A DNA stretch of 64,000 bases, taken from positions 124,001-188,000 of the forward strand of contig JAHBTJ010000007.1 in NCBI GenBank assembly GCA_019638595.1. Reading direction: 5' to 3'. Source of the DNA: Chitinophagaceae bacterium. Lineage in GTDB: Bacteria; Bacteroidota; Bacteroidia; Chitinophagales; Chitinophagaceae. How positions within the stretch are numbered: the first letter of the stretch is position 1; every line of letters begins with the position of its first letter. This document shows, piece by piece, positions 4,885 through 53,445 of this stretch. The notes under the pieces are model-generated. The model saw only the letters and a list, made by a program, of their open reading frames with translations, was not told the origin of the DNA and did no database searches. A program made the translations under genes and the position numbers.

Positions 4885-5916
4885 TTACACCACTCCCCTG
4901 AACTGCTTCAGGAACCTTACATCGTTTTCGCTGAATAAACGGATATCATTGATACCGTATTTCAGCAGCGCGGGGCGTTCCACACCCATACCAAATGCAA
5001 AACCGGTATACTTTTCTGGATCAATATTGCAATGCTCCAACACTTTGGGATGTACCATACCGCAGCCCAGTATTTCGAGCCAGCCGGTGTATTTACAAAC
5101 ATTACAGCCCGCACCCTTGCACAACTGGCAACTGATGTCCATTTCGGCGCTGGGTTCGGTAAAAGGAAAATAGCTGGGACGGAAACGGACCTTCACATCA
5201 TTGCCATACATTTCCTGCACAAAAAAATACAGGGTTTGCTTCAGGTCGGCGAACGAAACATTTTCATCTATATATAAACCTTCTACCTGGTGAAAGAAGC
5301 AATGGCTCCGGGCGCTGATGGTTTCATTGCGATATACTCTGCCGGGACAAATAATACGTAAAGGCAGCTTTCCCTTTTCCATTTCCCTGATCTGGATATT
5401 ACTGGTGTGGGTACGCAGCAGCCATGCGGGGTGGGTAGAGATATAAAAAGTATCCTGCATATCGCGTGCAGGATGGTGCTCGGGCAAATTAAGTGCTGTG
5501 AAATTGTGCCAGTCGTCTTCAATTTCGGGACCCTCGGCAACAGAAAAGCCTAAACGCTGGAAAATAGAAACAATGCGATTCCGCATCATGCTGATAGGGT
5601 GGCGGCTGCCAACCGGAATAACGTTGCCGGGCAGCGTAAGATCAATATCCACGCCGGCGGCGGATTGCCCGTTCTCACCCGCTTCTTTAAGCGAGTTGTA
5701 TTTTGCTTCGGTAAATTGTTTGAACTCGTTCAGTATCTGGCCAAATTCTCTTTTACGATCGGCGGGAACATTTTTCATTTCGCCCATCAGGTTTTTTACC
5801 AAACCCTTTGTTCCTAAATAAGTTATACGAAATTGTTCGGCGCCTTCTGCGCCGGGTACATTGTATGCGTCTATTTCTTTGCGCCAGCTTTCAAGCTGCT
5901 GTAACAATTGCTCCAT
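4885..5916 (-). CDS. pheS: Phenylalanyl-tRNA synthetase alpha subunit
   Basis: A 343-residue class II aminoacyl-tRNA synthetase subunit that charges tRNA-Phe as part of the alpha2-beta2 enzyme. The N-terminal coiled-coil arm (1 to about 90) is followed by the catalytic core with 'GSRHPISMM' (motif 1 region), 'RTHTSNIQIR' and 'FRPSYFPFTEPSAE' (motif 2 region) and 'GFAFGMGVERPALLKYGI' (motif 3). A cysteine set CQLCKGAGCNVCKYTG marks the form with an extra Cys-rich loop. Length is normal for the family. The gene follows ftsX by 26 bp on the same strand; pheT is not in the window. Confidence 0.96.
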   Translation of the reverse strand: MEQLLQQLESWRKEIDAYNVPGAEGAEQFRITYLGTKGLVKNLMGEMKNVPADRKREFGQILNEFKQFTEAKYNSLKEAGENGQSAAGVDIDLTLPGNVIPVGSRHPISMMRNRIVSIFQRLGFSVAEGPEIEDDWHNFTALNLPEHHPARDMQDTFYISTHPAWLLRTHTSNIQIREMEKGKLPLRIICPGRVYRNETISARSHCFFHQVEGLYIDENVSFADLKQTLYFFVQEMYGNDVKVRFRPSYFPFTEPSAEMDISCQLCKGAGCNVCKYTGWLEILGCGMVHPKVLEHCNIDPEKYTGFAFGMGVERPALLKYGINDIRLFSENDVRFLKQFRGVV

Positions 5917-5942
5917 TGCGCGAAGATAAGGAAGGAAAACTG

Positions 5943-6815
5943 TTAATACAGATCGTCCAGCTTCATCTTCAGGTATTTGGTAACGCTGCGGTGGGTGCTG
6001 ATAAAGGTGATTACAATGCCGATCACGATGATCCCAACAAATAATATTCCCAGCAAGGTAAAATCGCGCAGCACTTTTATGGCCGGAAGCCAGCTTTCCA
6101 CACCTATAATAAGTAATACCAATACCGCAATAGCTATAAGGGCGCTGATAAGTCCGTTCACTACCGCTTTTATATCAAAAGGCTTTGAAATAAACCAGCG
6201 GGTGGCACCTACCATCTGCATTGTTTTAATTAAAAACCGGTTGCTGAACATGGCCAGCTTGATCGTATTATCTATTAAGATCAACACCAGCGCACCCAGC
6301 AACGCTACAATGCCCAGCAGCACCCATCCTACTTTTTTAACGGTATCTTCGAGGTTTACTACTACATCCCTGGGGTATTTTACATCGTCTACATTAGCCA
6401 CCTGCGAAAGCTCTTCCACAATAATATTCAGTGAGTCCTTGTTAACATATTCAGGCTTTAAGTTAAAATCAACGCTCCTTTTCAGTGGATTTTCATCCAA
6501 AACACCTTCCCACGATTCATTGCCTTCTTCCATATATTTTTTCTTTGCCTCGGCTTTTGATATAGGTACTGCGGAAACCGTATACGGCTTTGCTTTGATC
6601 GCTTCCAGTAATTTATCAGCATCCTCTGCCGACATGTCGTCCTTCAGGTATACCTGCACCTGCACATTGCTCCTGAAATAACGTTCCAGCTTGCTGCCAT
6701 TAATTACCAGCCAGCCAAAAACACCTATCAGGATTAAAAGAGAAGCAACGCCAAGTATACTGAAAAAATAGGAAGGCTTGCTTCGCCTCATAGAACTTTT
6801 GCTGATCTCATTCAT
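5943..6815 (-). CDS. ftsX: Cell division protein FtsX
   Basis: A 290-residue membrane protein with FtsX topology: a short cytoplasmic N-terminus, a first membrane segment at about 16-39, a periplasmic domain (about 42-155, 'VQVQVYLKDDMSAEDA'), and three further membrane segments near 160-182, 213-240 and 250-275. FtsX pairs with the ATPase FtsE to activate peptidoglycan hydrolases at the division site. The conserved 'RFLIKTMQMVGATRWFI' stretch between segments 2 and 3 is present. FtsE is not adjacent. It is the first gene of a minus-strand run continuing into pheS. Confidence 0.93.
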   Translation of the reverse strand: MNEISKSSMRRSKPSYFFSILGVASLLILIGVFGWLVINGSKLERYFRSNVQVQVYLKDDMSAEDADKLLEAIKAKPYTVSAVPISKAEAKKKYMEEGNESWEGVLDENPLKRSVDFNLKPEYVNKDSLNIIVEELSQVANVDDVKYPRDVVVNLEDTVKKVGWVLLGIVALLGALVLILIDNTIKLAMFSNRFLIKTMQMVGATRWFISKPFDIKAVVNGLISALIAIAVLVLLIIGVESWLPAIKVLRDFTLLGILFVGIIVIGIVITFISTHRSVTKYLKMKLDDLY

Positions 6816-46207: not shown

Positions 46208-48094
46208 ATGACTATCCTAAAAACAGATCTCAGCAACAGGTTTATTCTCCGGTATTTTGTACGCCATTATATCTTCTGGATACTCATTTTTTTTGTTCAG
46301 CGCCTCACCTTTGTGCTGTATTACTCCCGCTCGTTTGCAGAAGCAGGAGTTACACGGGGAATAGAGAGCTTTTGGCATGGCTTGCAGCTTGATCTTTCAT
46401 TGGCAGGCTACTTTGCCCTGCTGCCATTTTTAGTATTAGTGATACAGTACTTTGCCGGCGGCTCTTTTTTTAAAACATTTATAAAATGGTACACTTTCAT
46501 ATTGATAATACTCACTGTTATAATTTCCGGCAGCGATTTGGGTTTATATGAAAACTGGGGCGTTAAGCTCAACTACCGGGCTGTTACAATGCTGGCCCAT
46601 CCTGCAGAAGCCTTTGAAACAATTCAATCCGCCCCTCTTTTTTTGTTAACGGCGATAATGCTGGCTCAGGGTTTTATTTGCTGGCTGTTGTATAAAGCGA
46701 TCATGGCGCCGGTTGCCGGCTGGCGTTTTCATAATAGGAAGGCAATACAATTTTCAATCAGTATGCTGGTTGCAGCCGCTGTTATTATAACAAGCATACG
46801 GGGAGGGGTACAGCAAATTCCGGTAAATGAAAGTACCGCCTATTTCTGCTCGTTACCAATAGCCAATCATGCGGCCGTAAATACAACCTGGCATCTTTTT
46901 AAAAGTATTTCCAAAAACAGCGGTCATGGGCACGCCAATATTTATTCGTATCTGCCATTGCAGGAAGCTGAAGATCTGCTGCAAAAGTTATATACCGTCC
47001 CAGGTATTGATTCAACAGTATCAATATTAAAAGAGCCAACGCCTAATATTGTTTTTATACAGTTGGAGAGCTTTACCGCGGGAGTGGTAAAAGAACTGGG
47101 TGGTGATAGCGGAATAACACCCGTATTAAGCAGGCTGATTGATCAGGGATTATTGTTCACGAATATCTATTCAAGCGGTGTGCGAACCGACCAGGGCATC
47201 ATTGCCTTGCTTAGCGGTTTCCCCGCCCAGCCGCAAACCAGTATTATTTACCAGCCTGATAAAATTGAACACCTCCCCTTCCTCTCTCTTGAGTTTAAGA
47301 AAAAGGGATACGGGAATAACTTTTATTATGGAGGAGAGCTGGGCTTTGGCAGGTTTAATACCATCGCCCATCATGCGGGTTTCGACCGGGTTATAGGTAA
47401 GGATGATTTTTCGGAAGCCCGGCAGTTTAACAAATGGGGAGTTGACGATAAATCGCTTTTCGAAAAATTTGCAAATGAAAGCAAAACATTTACTCAGCCA
47501 TTTTTTTCGTACGTGATTACTTCAAGCAGTCACGAGCCGTTTACTGTACCCATGGAGCCGGTATTTAAAGGCAACAGCCTGGAAGAAAGGTTTAAGAATG
47601 CCTGCTATTTTACGGATCAATCATTGGGAGAGTTGCTGGATTCGGTTAAGAATACAGCATGGTATAAGCATACCTTATTTGTGCTGGTAGCGGATCATGG
47701 GCATGTTTTACCATTGAACAGAAAATTTGATGAGCCTGCCCGTTATCATATTCCGCTGCTGCTTTTTGGAGAGGCATTAAAGGAAGAATACAAGGCAGTA
47801 ACAATAAATGCCCTCGGCTCTCAAACAGATATAGCCGGTACGCTTGCAAAACAACTGGGACTAAACGACAAATTGTTTAAATGGAGCAATGATCTTTTAT
47901 TGCCGCAAAGGCAGCAATTTGCTTTTTATACTTTTGATGATGGCTTTGGGTGGCTGACGCCCGGCGATACGGTTATTTTCGACAATCGCGCACAAAAGAT
48001 CCTGCAGGGCAGCGCAACCGGAGATAAGGAGTCAAATCTTATAAAGGGAAAGGCATATATGCAGATGCTCTATGATGCTTTTTTGAAGTATTGA
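46208..48094 (+). CDS. LtaS-like sulfatase-fold phosphotransferase, membrane protein
   Basis: A 628-residue protein. Residues 1 to about 200 contain about five membrane segments; from about 278 an extracytoplasmic alkaline-phosphatase/sulfatase domain begins: 'NIVFIQLESFTAG' (metal-binding E287), 'SSGVRTDQGIIALLSGFPAQP' with the nucleophile T327, and 'FVLVADHGHVLPL' (metal-binding Asp/His). This is the layout of lipoteichoic-acid synthase and phosphoethanolamine or phosphoglycerol transferases. In a Gram-negative bacterium the product is probably a phospho-substituted glycan or lipid, not teichoic acid. It starts next to the divergent rlmN gene. Confidence 0.87.
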   Translation: MTILKTDLSNRFILRYFVRHYIFWILIFFVQRLTFVLYYSRSFAEAGVTRGIESFWHGLQLDLSLAGYFALLPFLVLVIQYFAGGSFFKTFIKWYTFILIILTVIISGSDLGLYENWGVKLNYRAVTMLAHPAEAFETIQSAPLFLLTAIMLAQGFICWLLYKAIMAPVAGWRFHNRKAIQFSISMLVAAAVIITSIRGGVQQIPVNESTAYFCSLPIANHAAVNTTWHLFKSISKNSGHGHANIYSYLPLQEAEDLLQKLYTVPGIDSTVSILKEPTPNIVFIQLESFTAGVVKELGGDSGITPVLSRLIDQGLLFTNIYSSGVRTDQGIIALLSGFPAQPQTSIIYQPDKIEHLPFLSLEFKKKGYGNNFYYGGELGFGRFNTIAHHAGFDRVIGKDDFSEARQFNKWGVDDKSLFEKFANESKTFTQPFFSYVITSSSHEPFTVPMEPVFKGNSLEERFKNACYFTDQSLGELLDSVKNTAWYKHTLFVLVADHGHVLPLNRKFDEPARYHIPLLLFGEALKEEYKAVTINALGSQTDIAGTLAKQLGLNDKLFKWSNDLLLPQRQQFAFYTFDDGFGWLTPGDTVIFDNRAQKILQGSATGDKESNLIKGKAYMQMLYDAFLKY

Positions 48095-48104
48095 CCGCTC
48101 CTTA

Positions 48105-50069
48105 TTACATATTACGCCGGTATTGCCCGCCTGCTTCGTATAAGGCCTGTGTTATTTGCCCAAGCGAACAATATTTAACCGTATTCATCAGTTCGGCAAA
48201 AACATTCCCGTTTTGCGCAGCAACTTCCTTTAACGATTGTAAAGCCTCCCTGCTTTTAGCTGCATTTACTTTTTGAAATTGTAATACATTATTTATCTGT
48301 TGTTCTTTTTCTGCCTGTGTACTGCGTATTACCTGCTCTGGAATAATTACCGGGCTTCCTTTACTGCTTAAAAAAGTGTTTACACCTATTATAGGAAGCT
48401 CACCCGTATGTTTCAGATGTTCGTAGTGCAGGCTTTCTTCCTGTATTTTGTTGCGCTGGTACATTCTTTCCATAGCTCCTAAAACACCGCCCCGGTCGGC
48501 AATCCGGTCAAACTCCTTTAATACGGCTTCTTCCACCAGGTCGGTCAATTCCTCCATAGCAAAAGAACCCTGTATAAAATTTTCCGTTTTAGCTGTACCC
48601 AGCTCCCGGTTTATAATAAGCTGTATTGCCATTGCTCTTCGCACACTTTCTTCGGTAGGGGTAGTAATGGCTTCATCGTATGCATTGGTATGTAAAGAAT
48701 TGCAGTTATCGTAAATGGCGTATAATGCCTGCAGGGTGGTGCGTATGTCGTTAAAGTCAATTTCCTGGGCGTGCAGGCTGCGCCCGCTTGTTTGTATATG
48801 ATATTTCAGCTTTTGAGAACGTTCATTGCCATTGTACCTGTATTTCATCGCTTTGGCCCATATGCGCCTGGCAACCCGGCCAATTACACTGTACTCCGGG
48901 TCCATGCCATTACTGAAAAAGAAAGAAAGATTAGGTGCGAAATCATCGATATGCATTCCGCGGCTGAGGTAGTATTCAACATACGTAAAACCATTTGCCA
49001 GCGTAAAAGCCAATTGTGTAACAGGATTAGCGCCTGCTTCTGCTATGTGATAGCCGCTGATGCTTACACTGTAAAAATTTCTTACTTTATTTTGGATGAA
49101 ATATTCCTGTACATCACCCATTAATTTTAATGCGAACTCGGTAGAGAAAATACAGGTATTCTGCGCCTGGTCTTCTTTCAGGATATCTGCCTGCACCGTA
49201 CCTCTTACCTGTTGCAACGCTGTGGCTTTCAGTTGCTCATATATACCCGGTGGCACAACTGTATCTCCGCTGATGCCAAGTAAGGTAAGTCCCAGTTCAT
49301 CATTACCTGCCGGTATAATGCCGGGAGATGCAGTATCGTTGTAAAACGGCAATTCATTACCGGAAAATTTTTCTCTTTTACGCGCTGATACTTTGTGTTC
49401 CTCTTTGTGTTCTTTTATCCATTTTTCGCATAGCTGGTCAATTGCGGCATTCATATAAAATGCCAGTATTATTGGAGCAGGTCCATTAATGGTCATGCTT
49501 ACCGAGGTATATGGATCACAAAGATCAAATCCGCTGTAAAGTTTTTTAGCGTCATCCAGCGTAGCAATGCTTACACCGGCATTGCCAATTTTGCCATAAA
49601 TGTCGGGCCTGTAGGCAGGATCCTGTCCATACAGCGTAACACTATCAAAAGCGGTTGATAATCTTTTTGCCTGCTGCCCGGCAGATACATAATGAAAGCG
49701 TTTATTGGTTCTTTCGGGGCCTCCTTCTCCCGCGAACATTCTTGTTGGATCTTCTCCCTGCCGCTTCAGCTCAAAAACACCGGCAGTATACGGAAATGAG
49801 CCGGGTACATTTTCCTGCAATTGCCAGCGCAGGATATCACCCCAATCATTGTATGCAGGCAAAACCACTTTTTTAATGGAAGTGCCGCTCAGCGATGTTG
49901 TTGTCATATTCTGCCTGATGACTTTACCTCGTACGGTATATTCAAATACTTCCTTTCCATATTTTTCCTGCAGGTCTTTCCATTCGCTCAGCAGCTTTTG
50001 CAGCTCCGGATCTAATTTGTTTTGCAGCGATGTGTATTTCTCTTCAAGTTCGGTATACAGCATGATCAT
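48105..50069 (-). CDS. IcmF-type acyl-CoA mutase, catalytic (IcmA) half
   Basis: A 654-residue substrate-binding and TIM-barrel part of a B12-dependent acyl-CoA mutase. Motifs of the IcmF catalytic domain are complete: '[31 protein letters not shown]' region (about 93-123), '[13 protein letters not shown]', '[20 protein letters not shown]', '[24 protein letters not shown]', '[15 protein letters not shown]' and 'LQTSGRSLH'-like '[15 protein letters not shown]'. There is no B12-binding domain; that is in the gene two places upstream. It begins with an ATGA overlap on the DUF1016 gene. In fused IcmF this sequence follows the GTPase in one chain. Likely reaction: isobutyryl-CoA/n-butyryl-CoA or related carbon-skeleton rearrangement. 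Confidence 0.9.
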
Positions 50070-51031
50070 TGTTTTTTAGTACGCCTGCCGCGTATTATTT
50101 TTTGAACTTCCTGCTGCAATTGCTTTGCAGAAGGAAGATTGTCTTTTAACGATTTGGGCAACGATTTAATATATTGATATTCACTTACACCTATCGGATG
50201 ATTAATATTTTGCAAATAAAGATGATAGAATAACAAATCCAGCTTTCTGAATTTTCCTCCTACCCGCATTTTGATCTGCCTTCCTACAAAAGCGAATCCT
50301 GCACCTAATTCAATAAGGAATTCTTCAATGTGTTTTATGATCTGCTGTTCGAGCTCAAATTCCGTAATTTGTTCCCCGAGCTGGATAAAACCGAATTTGT
50401 AGGGGTCTTTTAATATCTGGTTGGCCAAATCGCTTTGGGCTTTCGGTAGTGTAAGATGAAAGTTGTTTACTTTTTTCGCTTTCTCCTGTCGTTGATATAA
50501 ATCAGTATCTACCTGGTATTTTAAAACCGACCGGCTCCAGTTGTTTTCAATGGTTTTTTTTACATACCATATCCGTTGGTCATGGTCTTCTATCTTGTCC
50601 ATCAGGTAAATGTGATGCCCCCATGGAATGCTTACCAGTTCTTCGTTGGTTATATGCCACAGCGTATTGCCAAATTGCGCAGCAAGCTGCTGCGTAATTT
50701 GGTTTTTTCCTTTTTGTTGTATTTGCGCAGCAGCTTGCTGCGTAATTAAGAAATATGGATAAGCAACGGCAAATTGCTTCATATACAGCAGGTTCCTTTC
50801 AGAAAATCCTTCAAGCTCAGGGAATGCCTTGTTGAGATCTCCGGACAAAGAAGATATAATTTTTGCTCCCCAGTTTTCAATGTCTATTTTTTGTTCAATC
50901 TGCTTGCCGATATACCAATACAATATTATCAGGTTCTTGTTTGCCTGCAGCGAAGTTTGCAGCCTTGATTGATCTATGCTTTTTTTAAGTACAGCCAGCC
51001 ATTGCTGGTACTGTTTGGCGGTGTTTTTCAT
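50066..51031 (-). CDS. DUF1016 (YhcG-like) protein with deleted nuclease core
   Basis: A 321-residue protein. The N-terminal DUF1016_N domain is complete (about 1-195; '[15 protein letters not shown]', '[31 protein letters not shown]', 'GWSR'-type '[11 protein letters not shown]'). The C-terminal PDDEXK part keeps '[19 protein letters not shown]' and '[11 protein letters not shown]' but then jumps to the family C-terminus '[18 protein letters not shown]'. In intact relatives, by recollection, about 55-60 residues including the catalytic ExK lie between these blocks. A duplicated 'ITQQxAAQ' unit lies near residue 96-120. Start and stop are fused to its neighbours (TGATATG at its start, ATGA at its end). 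Confidence 0.85.
50675..50747. repeat. 17-bp perfect inverted repeat inside the DUF1016 gene
   Basis: CGCAGCAAGCTGCTGCG (within 50675-50699) and CGCAGCAGCTTGCTGCG (within 50723-50747) are exact reverse complements, each itself nearly palindromic and flanked by 'taatt'. They encode the duplicated ITQQ(A/L)AAQ stretch. Confidence 0.65.
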
Positions 51032-51032
51032 A

Positions 51033-52460
51033 TCATTTGTTTTTAAGTATTTCTATTGCGCCGTTAAGCTGGTATAGTTGCGAAGCCGTTTTGCTTTGCT
51101 CTGTTGCCCAGTTATTATAGTCACGTACACATTTACTGATCTCACTTAAATATCTCACCCTGTCAGCCGGTATAATAATTTCATTTTTTGGCGGTTGCTG
51201 TAATACATTATTAAATGCTTCAGCTTCGTCTATCCATGGTATCTGCAACCTGCTTTTTATTGTTTCCAGTAATAATTGAAAAAGCCTGTTTACACCCGCG
51301 TCATTAAATTTGTTCGCGCACATATTGATAACCGGCAACTGTTCCGGTGCTGCTGAAAATAGCAGGTGGTTTCGTTTGTATTGCTTCCTCACATCATTCA
51401 AAGCATCATCCGCGCCTGGTTTATCTGCCTTGTTAATAGCAATAATATTGGCATAATCCAGCATGTTTATTTTCTCAAGCTGGGATGCCGCCCCATATTC
51501 CGGGGTCATTACATACATGCAGATATCGCTGTACCCGGTAATGCTTACGTCGCTTTGCCCTGTGCCTGCGGTTTCCAGTATAATACAATCGTAGCCTGCT
51601 TTTTTACAGATATCAATGGCTGCTTTTGCAGATTTACTTACTGACGCATTGTCTTCGCGTGTAGCCAACGATCGCATGTATACTCTTGGGTTTGATACTG
51701 CATTCATGCGGATGCGGTCGCCCAGTAAAGCGCCTCCCGTTTTTCTTTGGCTGGGATCAACAGCAATAACGGCTATTGTTCTTGCCGGAAAAACCTGCAG
51801 ATACCTTCTGACCAATTCATCGGTAACCGAAGATTTACCTGCGCCACCGGTTCCTGTAATACCAATAACCGGAATGATTGCTTCCTGCCTGGCGGGTTGC
51901 AGCTTTTCCAGCAGGTCATCGTATATGTCATCGCTTTCCGCCAGCGAAATAGCTCTTGCAACGACTCTTATATCCTTTAGCTCACCCAGTGGTAATGCCG
52001 CATTCCATTTGCTAACAGCCTCATCATAATTGGCGGTATCTGCGCATTGGGCTATTACATCCTGTATCATTCCGTCCAGTCCCATTTTCCTTCCGTCGTC
52101 GGGACTGTAAATACGATTGATGCCATACTGGTGAAGCGTTTCCGCCTCATGTGGCAGGATAGTTCCACCGCCGCCGCCAAAAATTTTAATATGGCTGCAT
52201 CCGCTTTCCTGCAGCAGGTCTTTCATGTACTTGAAAAATTCCATGTGACCACCCTGGTAACTGGTAACAGCTACCGCGTGCGCGTCTTCTTCAATAGCGC
52301 ATTCAACTATTTCGTGCACCGACCGGTCGTGACCCAGGTGTATCACCTCTGCTCCCTTTTGCTGCAACAGCCTCCTCATAATATTAATGGCGGCATCATG
52401 CCCGTCAAAAAGGCTGGCTGCTGTTACAATTCTTACCCGGGAAGCATTTTGTTTGTTCAT
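51033..52460 (-). CDS. IcmF-type B12-binding and MeaB/ArgK GTPase half
   Basis: A 475-residue protein. Residues 9-150 form the cobalamin-binding domain ('LFDGHDAAINIM' at 17-28 with the B12-ligating His of the DxH motif; 'IFGGGGGTILPHEAE'). Residues about 190-440 form a MeaB/ArgK-type G domain with P-loop GTGGAGKS (203-210), 'IAVDPSQRKTGGALLGDRIRM', 'ILETAGTGQSD' and 'AINKADKPGADD'. It ends in the helical linker 'YNNWATEQSKTASQLYQLNG'. Together with the mutase half it equals a complete IcmF. ATG at 52460 (MNKQNAS) is chosen over an upstream TTG. The GTPase would gate cofactor loading. Confidence 0.92.
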   Translation of the reverse strand: MNKQNASRVRIVTAASLFDGHDAAINIMRRLLQQKGAEVIHLGHDRSVHEIVECAIEEDAHAVAVTSYQGGHMEFFKYMKDLLQESGCSHIKIFGGGGGTILPHEAETLHQYGINRIYSPDDGRKMGLDGMIQDVIAQCADTANYDEAVSKWNAALPLGELKDIRVVARAISLAESDDIYDDLLEKLQPARQEAIIPVIGITGTGGAGKSSVTDELVRRYLQVFPARTIAVIAVDPSQRKTGGALLGDRIRMNAVSNPRVYMRSLATREDNASVSKSAKAAIDICKKAGYDCIILETAGTGQSDVSITGYSDICMYVMTPEYGAASQLEKINMLDYANIIAINKADKPGADDALNDVRKQYKRNHLLFSAAPEQLPVINMCANKFNDAGVNRLFQLLLETIKSRLQIPWIDEAEAFNNVLQQPPKNEIIIPADRVRYLSEISKCVRDYNNWATEQSKTASQLYQLNGAIEILKNK

Positions 52461-52584
52461 GAAAGGCAGTTCTCCCTTAAAATTAGCACTAATGCGCGTT
52501 AGCACGGCAAACGATTGCAAAAAAATGGTTTGGCGCTGATAAAAAATGGAAGTAGTTTAGTCCACTCAAAAAGGCAAATATTAT

Positions 52585-53445
52585 ATGAAATTAATTCGTT
52601 TTGGACAGGCTGGAAAAGAAAAGCCCGGCATTGTGCTTCAAGATGGCAAACGCATTGATGTATCTGCATTCGGAGAAGATTATACCGAGCGGTTTTTTGA
52701 AACAAATGGGCCGGATCGTCTGGGCAAATGGCTTAGCGACAATGCCGGCAGGGCGCCGGTAGTCAGCAATGCAGAAAGGCTTGGGGCTCCCATTGTTCGC
52801 CCTTCTAAACTGATATGTATTGGTTTGAACTATTCTGATCATGCTGCGGAAAGTAATATGCAGCTTCCGGCAGAACCTATTATCTTTTTTAAAGCGACCA
52901 GTGCCATTGTTGGGCCTGAAGATGATATTACTATTCCTAAAAACAGTATAAAAACCGATTGGGAAGTGGAGCTTGCCGTGGTAATTGGTAAAAAAGCATC
53001 GTATGTTGAAGAAAAGGACGCGATGGATTATGTTGCCGGTTATTTGCTGCACAACGATTACAGCGAGCGGGCGTTTCAACTGGAAAGAAGCGGCCAATGG
53101 GTAAAAGGAAAAAGCTGCGATACGTTCGCGCCGCTGGGTCCCTGGCTGGCAACCAAAGACGAGATAAAGGATATTAATAACCTTCGGTTATGGCTTACCG
53201 TAAATGGTAAAACCATGCAGGACGGGAATACCAAAAATCTCATCTTTAAAATTCCTTTCCTGGTATCTTACTTAAGCCAGTTTATGAGCCTGCTGCCGGG
53301 CGATATTATTACTACCGGCACACCTGCAGGGGTAGGACTGGGGCAAAAACCCGAACCGGTTTACCTGAAGGCGGGCGATGTGGTGGAGCTTGGTATAGAT
53401 GGATTGGGGCAGGCGAAGCAAACGCTTGTGGCCTGGAAAGGATAA
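52585..53445 (+). CDS. Fumarylacetoacetate hydrolase family protein (diketo-deoxy-fuconate hydrolase candidate)
   Basis: A 286-residue FAH-fold enzyme. Typical blocks: 'ICIGLNYSDHAAES' (77-90), 'EPIIFFKATSAIVGPEDDI' (97-115), metal ligands E127/E129 in 'DWEVELAVVIG' and D158 in 'LHNDYSERAFQ', and 'GDIITTGTPAGVGLG'. In non-phosphorylative L-fucose and L-rhamnose degradation such an enzyme cleaves a 2,4-diketo-3-deoxy acid to pyruvate and lactate. Neighbouring mutarotase, lactonase, SDR and FucP genes support the fucose route. It opens a plus-strand run of six genes. Confidence 0.88.
   Translation: MKLIRFGQAGKEKPGIVLQDGKRIDVSAFGEDYTERFFETNGPDRLGKWLSDNAGRAPVVSNAERLGAPIVRPSKLICIGLNYSDHAAESNMQLPAEPIIFFKATSAIVGPEDDITIPKNSIKTDWEVELAVVIGKKASYVEEKDAMDYVAGYLLHNDYSERAFQLERSGQWVKGKSCDTFAPLGPWLATKDEIKDINNLRLWLTVNGKTMQDGNTKNLIFKIPFLVSYLSQFMSLLPGDIITTGTPAGVGLGQKPEPVYLKAGDVVELGIDGLGQAKQTLVAWKG

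Follow-up and report, generated by a model that had tools for sequence, protein, structure and literature searches.

How does an enzyme that is usually one polypeptide come to be encoded by two genes with a nuclease-like gene between them? The question is raised by a locus of a 64,000-nt stretch (the window) of a Chitinophagaceae bacterium (assembly GCA_019638595.1, contig JAHBTJ010000007.1, positions 124,001 to 188,000; the genome is called G000 here). In the window, the gene of the B12-binding mutase IcmF is present as two genes, icmF-N and icmF-C, and a DUF1016 (YhcG-like) gene lies between them. Comparison with related loci shows insertion of DUF1016 into icmF, fission of icmF and decay of the insert. 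We consider it probable that the linker of icmF was invaded, on more than one occasion, by a homing-endonuclease-like gene that split icmF, and that the invader then decays and leaves a two-chain enzyme.

The icmF gene of the window is divided at its linker

The three genes lie head to tail on the minus strand, from 52460 to 48105, with the following features:

51033..52460, minus strand: icmF-N, 475 aa; B12-binding and MeaB-like GTPase domains, then the beginning of the helical linker (Pfam, NF045497 and 4xc6 alignment)
50066..51031, minus strand: DUF1016/YhcG gene (PD-(D/E)XK nuclease-like), 321 aa; wedged in the linker, nuclease core incomplete (Pfam)
48105..50069, minus strand: icmF-C, 654 aa; remaining linker and entire mutase domain (Pfam, NF045497 and 4xc6 alignment)
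51029..51035, minus strand: junction of the icmF-N stop and the DUF1016 start, TGATATG, with 1 nt between them
50066..50069, minus strand: DUF1016 stop and icmF-C start, 4-nt overlap ATGA
50212..50216, minus strand: point of a 174-nt in-frame deletion inside the DUF1016 gene, placed by comparison with the copy of genome G004

The start codon of icmF-N is an ATG at 52460 and its stop a TGA at 51035–51033. The Pfam scan assigned B12-binding and MeaB to icmF-N, MM_CoA_mutase to icmF-C, and DUF1016_N with a partial YhcG_C to the middle gene. When the two halves were compared with the NCBIfam model of IcmF (NF045497), icmF-N matched positions 2–466 of 1076 with 618.9 bits, and icmF-C scored 1095.4 bits over the whole protein, with its best stretch at 697–1076 of 1076; the curated cut-off for a single chain (1500 bits) was reached by neither. 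In the alignment with the C. metallidurans IcmF chain 4xc6, icmF-N corresponded to residues 44–505 and icmF-C to residues 529 to 1113, the last. Switch III residues Gln341 and Lys344 are kept in icmF-N, while the 8ssl chain has Ala at the Gln position; replacement of these two residues is described for C. metallidurans as reducing GTPase activity (PMC10481361). The order of B12-binding, GTPase, linker and mutase domains is thus colinear with fused IcmF (NF045497; 4xc6), from which the window differs in having two chains, broken between the GTPase and mutase domains. These results agree with what a reading of the letters alone (the sequence-only reading) had claimed for the content of the upstream and downstream genes, and the coordinates and letters of both junctions around the YhcG-like gene were confirmed as well.

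The 22 N-terminal residues of icmF-C that did not align to 4xc6 about fill the interval between residues 505 and 529, so nothing is missing from the linker. Moreover, the linker measured 29–40 residues in 21 fused genes and 33–44 residues (the end of N and the beginning of C taken together) in 24 split genes; therefore, nothing was lost and a few residues were gained in the splits, which answers the earlier proposal to look in the linker for lost or duplicated residues. In all 24 split genes examined, icmF-N ended 6–14 residues past an LYQLxG-like motif.

The DUF1016 gene recurs at the same site in several genera

Relatives of the insert were sought with the intact DUF1016 protein of G004 (P0001) in 394 genomes of the family, in 396 genomes of the order, and by a pattern scan of a GTDB-wide collection. 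Fourteen genes were at least 53% identical to P0001, the G004 copy included. Twelve of the fourteen were wedged between icmF halves (G000, G004, G005, G003, G269, Niabella drilacis (= G676), three Ferruginibacter metagenome-assembled genomes (MAGs), G372, G511 and G552), and these are spread over five distinct IcmF clades: Terrimonas, Niabella, g102, g125 and Ferruginibacter. One copy lies away from icmF (G088; L121, about 5076–6242). The other is an orphan in G009 (L120), where icmF is deleted and the neighbour of the locus still adjoins the DUF1016 gene. This conserved neighbour, by which the orphan locus was recognised, is in the window

52585..53445, plus strand: gene divergent from icmF-N, which we take to be of the FAH family

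and it was found in 7 of 9 Terrimonas-type loci (L041–L049) as well as beside the orphan. Upstream of the orphan, 117 nt of the 5' flank of icmF-N (77% identity) and a 34-nt match to the 3' end of icmF-N (E 0.014) were found. The next relatives of P0001 in these searches are at most 50% identical, and the one at 50% is a fragment, again in icmF (L140 of G681).

A second DUF1016 gene of the window genome, between hemE and hemF (L003 290–3383; its stop overlaps the hemF start, ATGA), served as a control. It has 22 other places in the 394 genomes, 52–79% identical, and hemE or hemF was found in the flanks examined of none of these 22 relatives. This gene was accordingly rejected as a second locus-specific wedge, and since its branch is spread over other places, attachment to one locus does not hold for DUF1016 genes in general.

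In the family, icmF is normally fused. A match to icmF-C was obtained in 340 of 394 genomes, and among the 150 matches listed, 136 were open frames of at least 1043 aa, 9 of 652–664 aa and 5 of 723–867 aa, which bears out the claim that IcmF is usually one chain. Among the 12 genomes of the window's genus, icmF is present in ten and absent from G009 and G010. Two of the ten, G007 and G008, have a fused gene; G000, G004, G005 and G003 have a split gene with DUF1016, and G002, G006, G001 and G011 a split gene without it. In Niabella (17 genomes), icmF was matched in 16, with none in G364; 3 genes were fused, 9 were split and 4 had broken frames, the last (G675, G677, G678 and G680) being left unclassed. 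G354, with a frame break in N and 7% contamination, and G109, at a contig end, were also not classed as splits. In G136 (g4; L080 5148–8566), icmF is split at the same hinge without DUF1016, and the other sampled g4 member, G014, is fused. Both intact icmF and the same split were thus found among relatives, the split at the same point in other genera. Relatives that were all split and free of DUF1016 would have spoken against the sequence-only reading, and instead 4 of the 8 Terrimonas-type splits carry the gene and G009 keeps an intact copy.

An assembly or annotation artefact could be suspected because several of the genomes are draft MAGs. The wedge is, however, also found in the single-contig genome G269, in Terrimonas sp. 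NS-102, in Niabella drilacis DSM 25811 and in the three Ferruginibacter MAGs, which refutes this explanation, and we give it a negligible chance.

The insert carries its own punctuation

Junctions were tabulated for 11 loci whose reading frame is complete, the window included; G511 stood outside the table (73 nt, uncertain start). The icmF-N stop overlaps the DUF1016 start by 1–8 nt in 8 of the 11 loci, as a 4-nt ATGA overlap in six, as TAATG in one and over 8 nt in one; the other junctions have a gap of 1 nt (G000 and G004) or 16 nt (G676). From the DUF1016 stop to the icmF-C start, the distance was −4 to +14 nt in 9 of 11 loci and +61 nt in G372, and in G552 an ATG lies 2 nt after the stop. 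As shown by this comparison, the wedge itself supplies the punctuation of the N–DUF1016–C operon. The overlapping or touching arrangement of stops and starts suggests that translation of the three genes is coupled, as a review also suggests for T4 mobE, which overlaps the upstream stop as UAAUGA (PMC2988022).

The insert decays while both icmF halves are retained

In the DUF1016 protein of the window, the DUF1016_N domain is complete (residues 15–181, profile 2–137 of 137; PF17761), whereas YhcG_C (PF06250) covers only 2–71 of 157 profile positions and the ExK stretch is absent. A full YhcG_C (2–157 of 157) was found in all five related proteins scanned, four of them icmF-linked and one the orphan. 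The intact P0001 has 379 aa, and the window copy is 97% identical to it apart from an in-frame deletion of 58 codons (174 nt) at residues about 275–332. The deleted part comprises the ExK-bearing strand of the PD-(D/E)XK motif together with the next helix and strand (model E275–282, H288–304, E314–319); Glu224, Glu241, Asp265 and Lys282 are invariant across 35 DUF1016 proteins. The window copy is catalytically incomplete, its frame and junctions being kept and the catalytic strand gone. When the insert was modelled with AlphaFold, a run with 7 sequences was poor (mean pLDDT 54.0), and a run with 35 sequences reached 72.4 with a core that matches the motif. A search of the PDB sequence set with the profile of A2 matched no chain at E 1. 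No Rfam match reached the gathering score in window 47900–52700 or in five related loci, and the domain and Rfam scans gave no intron or intein signal, which leaves a free-standing nuclease-like gene inside a conserved gene. At 50683–50754, the insert also codes for a repeated TQQxAAQ motif (ITQQAAAQ ... ITQQLAAQ) around a stretch whose length varies among relatives; only sub-threshold Rfam matches were obtained over this repeat region.

Further stages of loss were observed among the nine Niabella splits. A full DUF1016 gene is present in G269 and G676, and partial copies in three others: in G681 the beginning of the gene runs in frame to its former stop (141 codons), in G679 residues 1–55 and 353–392 form a single frame, likewise to the former stop (93 codons), and in G308 remains of both ends survive out of frame. 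In G406, the first 25 and last ~20 nt of DUF1016 are joined as footprints of both ends. Footprints were assessed at both ends of 11 gaps (22 comparisons) as the raw fraction of interior 50-mers that reached the observed score. This fraction was at most 0.021 at both ends of G406, G308 and G679, at the 3' end of the Terrimonas splits G002 and G006, and at the 5' end of G136; the last is not claimed, since the match is gappy. In the Niabella genome G386, a weak 3' trace gave 0.034. These footprints, the partial copies and the position of G009 (with its intact orphan) as sister of the DUF1016-less G011 in the rpoB DNA tree (99/98) indicate that the empty splits in Niabella and Terrimonas descend from occupied ones; in the rpoB protein tree, G009 instead stands outside the other five of its group. 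No re-fusion was seen in Niabella or Terrimonas, and no re-invasion. Within this series, the locus of the window is an intermediate of decay, with reading frame and junctions intact and the catalytic strand lost.

Both halves of icmF are under strong purifying selection after the split. The ratio of nonsynonymous to synonymous substitution rates (dN/dS) in split pairs was 0.06–0.11 for icmF-N and 0.02–0.06 for icmF-C, compared with 0.04–0.12 and 0.02–0.03 in two fused control pairs.

The order of events could also have been the reverse, with a tolerant hinge of icmF breaking before any insertion and DUF1016 moving later into a ready-made gap. Splits without DUF1016 do exist, at the same hinge in G136 and with the halves apart and no DUF1016 nearby in G041 (L050/L186, different contigs), G037 (L052/L187, ~11 kb) and G057 (L053/L188, 64 kb; here the break lies more upstream, which leaves the linker on the mutase side), and the phage 25 seg case is described as ambiguous in the same way (PMC2988022). 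The overlap of the icmF-N stop with the DUF1016 start in most tabulated loci, however, implies that the insert itself ends icmF-N, and the empty splits in Niabella and Terrimonas either show footprints or branch among carriers. The reverse order seems to us quite improbable.

Trees suggest more than one insertion

The IcmF trees were calculated from 27 and 44 rows. The smaller left out G025, G026, G051, G045, G037, G057, G017, G041 and genomes without an N match, and the larger left out G552 (short contig) and G041 (no N nearby); loci L015, L016, L017, L019, L021, L025, L029, L034, L038 and L040 were replaced by larger stretches or by repeats from the same genome. The 44-row tree follows the genera, apart from exceptions such as G007, and at least six changes between fused and split are needed on it. 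In this tree, G372 is joined to three fused genes from its own genus, g102 (99/99); all nine splits from Niabella form one clade (100/100) near fused Niabella, and the three Ferruginibacter genes stand together (100/99). A position of G372 inside the Terrimonas splits was rejected by the approximately unbiased test (p-AU 0.003, 27-row tree). Independent insertions in g102 and Terrimonas are accordingly well supported, and independent insertions in the remaining clades are likely. The position of G136 was unstable: it fell with G014 (95/72, icmF-C tree), with G372 (83/80, 27 rows) or with G020 (82/90, 44 rows).

When icmF-N and icmF-C were analysed separately, each tree put the Terrimonas-type splits in one group; G372 was placed in the N tree and unresolved in the C tree. 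Halves derived from different lineages, which would have contradicted the idea of one broken gene, were thus not observed. For the insert, partial copies were left out and eight hand-chosen outgroup DUF1016 genes were added. The resulting tree joins Niabella with Ferruginibacter (95/90), while the IcmF tree joins Terrimonas with Niabella (98/90). When Terrimonas and Niabella were forced together in the DUF1016 tree, p-AU was 0.0545, and 0.031 with G009 (raw values among several tests). Between G000 and G004, dS was 0.32 for the insert vs 0.55 for icmF-N and 0.67 for icmF-C, and the two loci show high identity across the insert and into the beginning of icmF-C. A conversion tract as proof of transfer was dropped, since the identity is equally high towards the FAH gene.

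A single ancient insertion followed by vertical descent, with fused icmF regained many times by precise deletion or replacement, would account for the clustering of DUF1016 genes by genus. It would also suit the fused gene of G008, which two IcmF trees place beside split G000/G004 (96/91, 27 rows; 93/90, 44 rows) and whose genome stands weakly with the four DUF1016 carriers by rpoB (51/59); in the C tree, this gene lies outside the splits. Replacement may indeed happen: the fused IcmF of G007 (L048 2672–6019) groups with fused Niabella (100/94), but rpoB places G007 with Terrimonas, and transfer of its icmF is possible. The rpoB trees comprised 30 hand-chosen genomes, the fragmentary G414 being dropped and a later tree being also without G113, G286, G372 and G511. 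On the other side, a single insertion needs re-fusion or replacement in most surrounding lineages, the linkers would have returned to 29–33 residues in 17 of 21 fused genes, and IcmF otherwise follows the genera. A single clade of the eight Terrimonas splits was 10.1 log-likelihood units lower with 27 rows (p-AU 0.106) and 15.3 units higher with 44 rows (p-AU 0.721), and for rpoB (ten genomes without G008) p-AU was 0.073. A further rpoB clade test of the eight split genomes (p 3.7e-68) was set aside as ill posed, as the icmF-less G009 and G010 nest among them. Taken together, we regard one ancient insertion as very unlikely, and repeated insertion is the reading followed below.

A probable homing-endonuclease-like origin of the split

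A free-standing homing endonuclease gene is expected to be specific for a site, to encode a nuclease domain, to recur and to decay, and the split is read in this way. The icmF-linked DUF1016 branch would be such a gene, specific for the icmF linker. An intact DUF1016 protein would cut an uninterrupted icmF linker, and repair would copy the gene into it. The insert would bring its own stop and start signals and split icmF into N and C genes, and icmF-N, DUF1016 and icmF-C would then be translated in a coupled manner. The B12–GTPase chain and the mutase chain would assemble into a working mutase. The insert later loses internal parts and vanishes, as seen in Niabella, with icmF staying split. 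The sequence-only reading had proposed that a fused icmF was broken at a tolerant point by a foreign gene, and this idea is supported by the coincidence of the break with DUF1016, the complete linker and the purifying selection on both halves. A wider claim, to which we give about an even chance, is that this branch of DUF1016/YhcG proteins, which are widespread and uncharacterised, forms a novel family of free-standing homing endonucleases in bacterial chromosomes, which would target the hinge of one B12 enzyme, bring its own translational punctuation, leave two working chains and act as a one-way fission ratchet in which the parasite goes and the split stays.

Several results weigh against this origin. 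We know of no measured cleavage or homing by any DUF1016 protein. A Foldseek search with the 35-sequence model gave no match at E ≤ 0.001, the top row being the endonuclease EndoMS (E 0.0016). Matches to the insert in phages (15 records) and plasmids (463) were all below 60% identity, and no vehicle was found among them. The GC content over the insert is low (0.376–0.41), yet other low-GC stretches occur in the window. No trace of DUF1016 was found by the footprint test in the empty splits G001, G011, G674 and G339, and the separated halves of G041, G037 and G057 have no DUF1016 nearby. The comparison with fused kin covered three of the five occupied clades, Terrimonas, Niabella and g102. A common clade, and with it one origin, of the Terrimonas and Niabella splits was not rejected (p-AU 0.182), and within genera the DUF1016 gene looks vertical. 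Horizontal movement, with modest incongruence between trees and borderline tests behind it, is suggested, not proven.

The insert itself is under purifying selection (dN/dS 0.04–0.09), and the DUF1016 copy of G009 is intact despite the loss of icmF; together these leave room for a function of its own. DUF1016 might have been recruited into the icmF operon as a functional partner (for regulation, assembly, or phage defence out of an operon with steady expression), with the fission as a by-product. The insert matches the PADLOC candidate models PDC-S02, and some other DUF1016 genes adjoin restriction-modification-like genes (recognised by eye), both of which would suit such a partner. DUF1016 is, however, absent from 4 of 8 Terrimonas splits, the window copy is without the catalytic strand, and an intact copy is missing from 7 of the 9 splits in Niabella, so that most of the split lineages examined have lost or broken the gene. 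We therefore consider recruitment unlikely.

Relation to known systems

The fused IcmF enzymes apart, the nearest precedent is mobE in nrdA of Aeromonas phage Aeh1. There, as in the T4 mobA/topoisomerase gene 60 case, a free-standing nuclease gene lies in an enzyme gene that gives two chains, and the split nrdA product is described as functional (PMC2988022). Those cases belong to phage genomes and HNH nucleases, whereas the icmF case belongs to bacterial chromosomes and to a PD-(D/E)XK family not known to home, its activity being predicted. It further differs in that one site is occupied in several genera, the decay is visible and the fission persists. The split B-type DNA polymerase of Methanobacterium and the split mitochondrial cox2 of Campsomeris are likewise enzyme genes split by insertions attributed to homing nucleases (PMC5374615), and they differ from icmF in genes, nucleases and hosts. 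The YhcG/DUF1016 family at large (PF17761 + PF06250), with its function listed as unknown in PMC1189080, shares the N-terminal DUF1016 and PD-(D/E)XK nuclease domains; unlike it, the icmF-linked branch is tied to one target gene, and the window copy has lost the second half of the nuclease core. Around the insert and in five related loci, no Rfam match reached its gathering score, a difference from the homing nuclease I-Ssp6803I. That enzyme is encoded by an intron. It is a bacterial PD-(D/E)XK homing nuclease of the same superfamily, as given by a reference-list title in PMC3943268.

In the literature searched, outside which most subscription papers and preprints fell, no description was found of a DUF1016 gene in icmF, of split icmF or of a homing DUF1016 protein. 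A few examples of genes split by an inserted nuclease gene are known, in phages, archaea and organelles (PMC2988022, PMC5374615). What would be new here is the nuclease family, the chromosomal metabolic target, the occurrence in several genera and the full decay series. Because fused, occupied, decaying and empty states stand side by side within single genera, the whole cycle is open to study in isolates. If the proposed origin is true, a widespread DUF gains a biochemical role that can be tested, since it would cut a named target, and enzymes split in nature would reveal if the GTPase chaperone of IcmF works in trans when carried by a B12–GTPase chain.

Other DUF1016 genes were observed in passing. 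The window genome has ten DUF1016_N matches, and at G000:C51 (L009 5–2400) the start of a further DUF1016 gene overlaps by 1 nt the last base in the stop region of an amino-acid-permease-like gene (coordinate 1453). Gp17 of Wolbachia phage WO (AB036666.1 16528–17536) is DUF1016-like and 42% identical to P0001.

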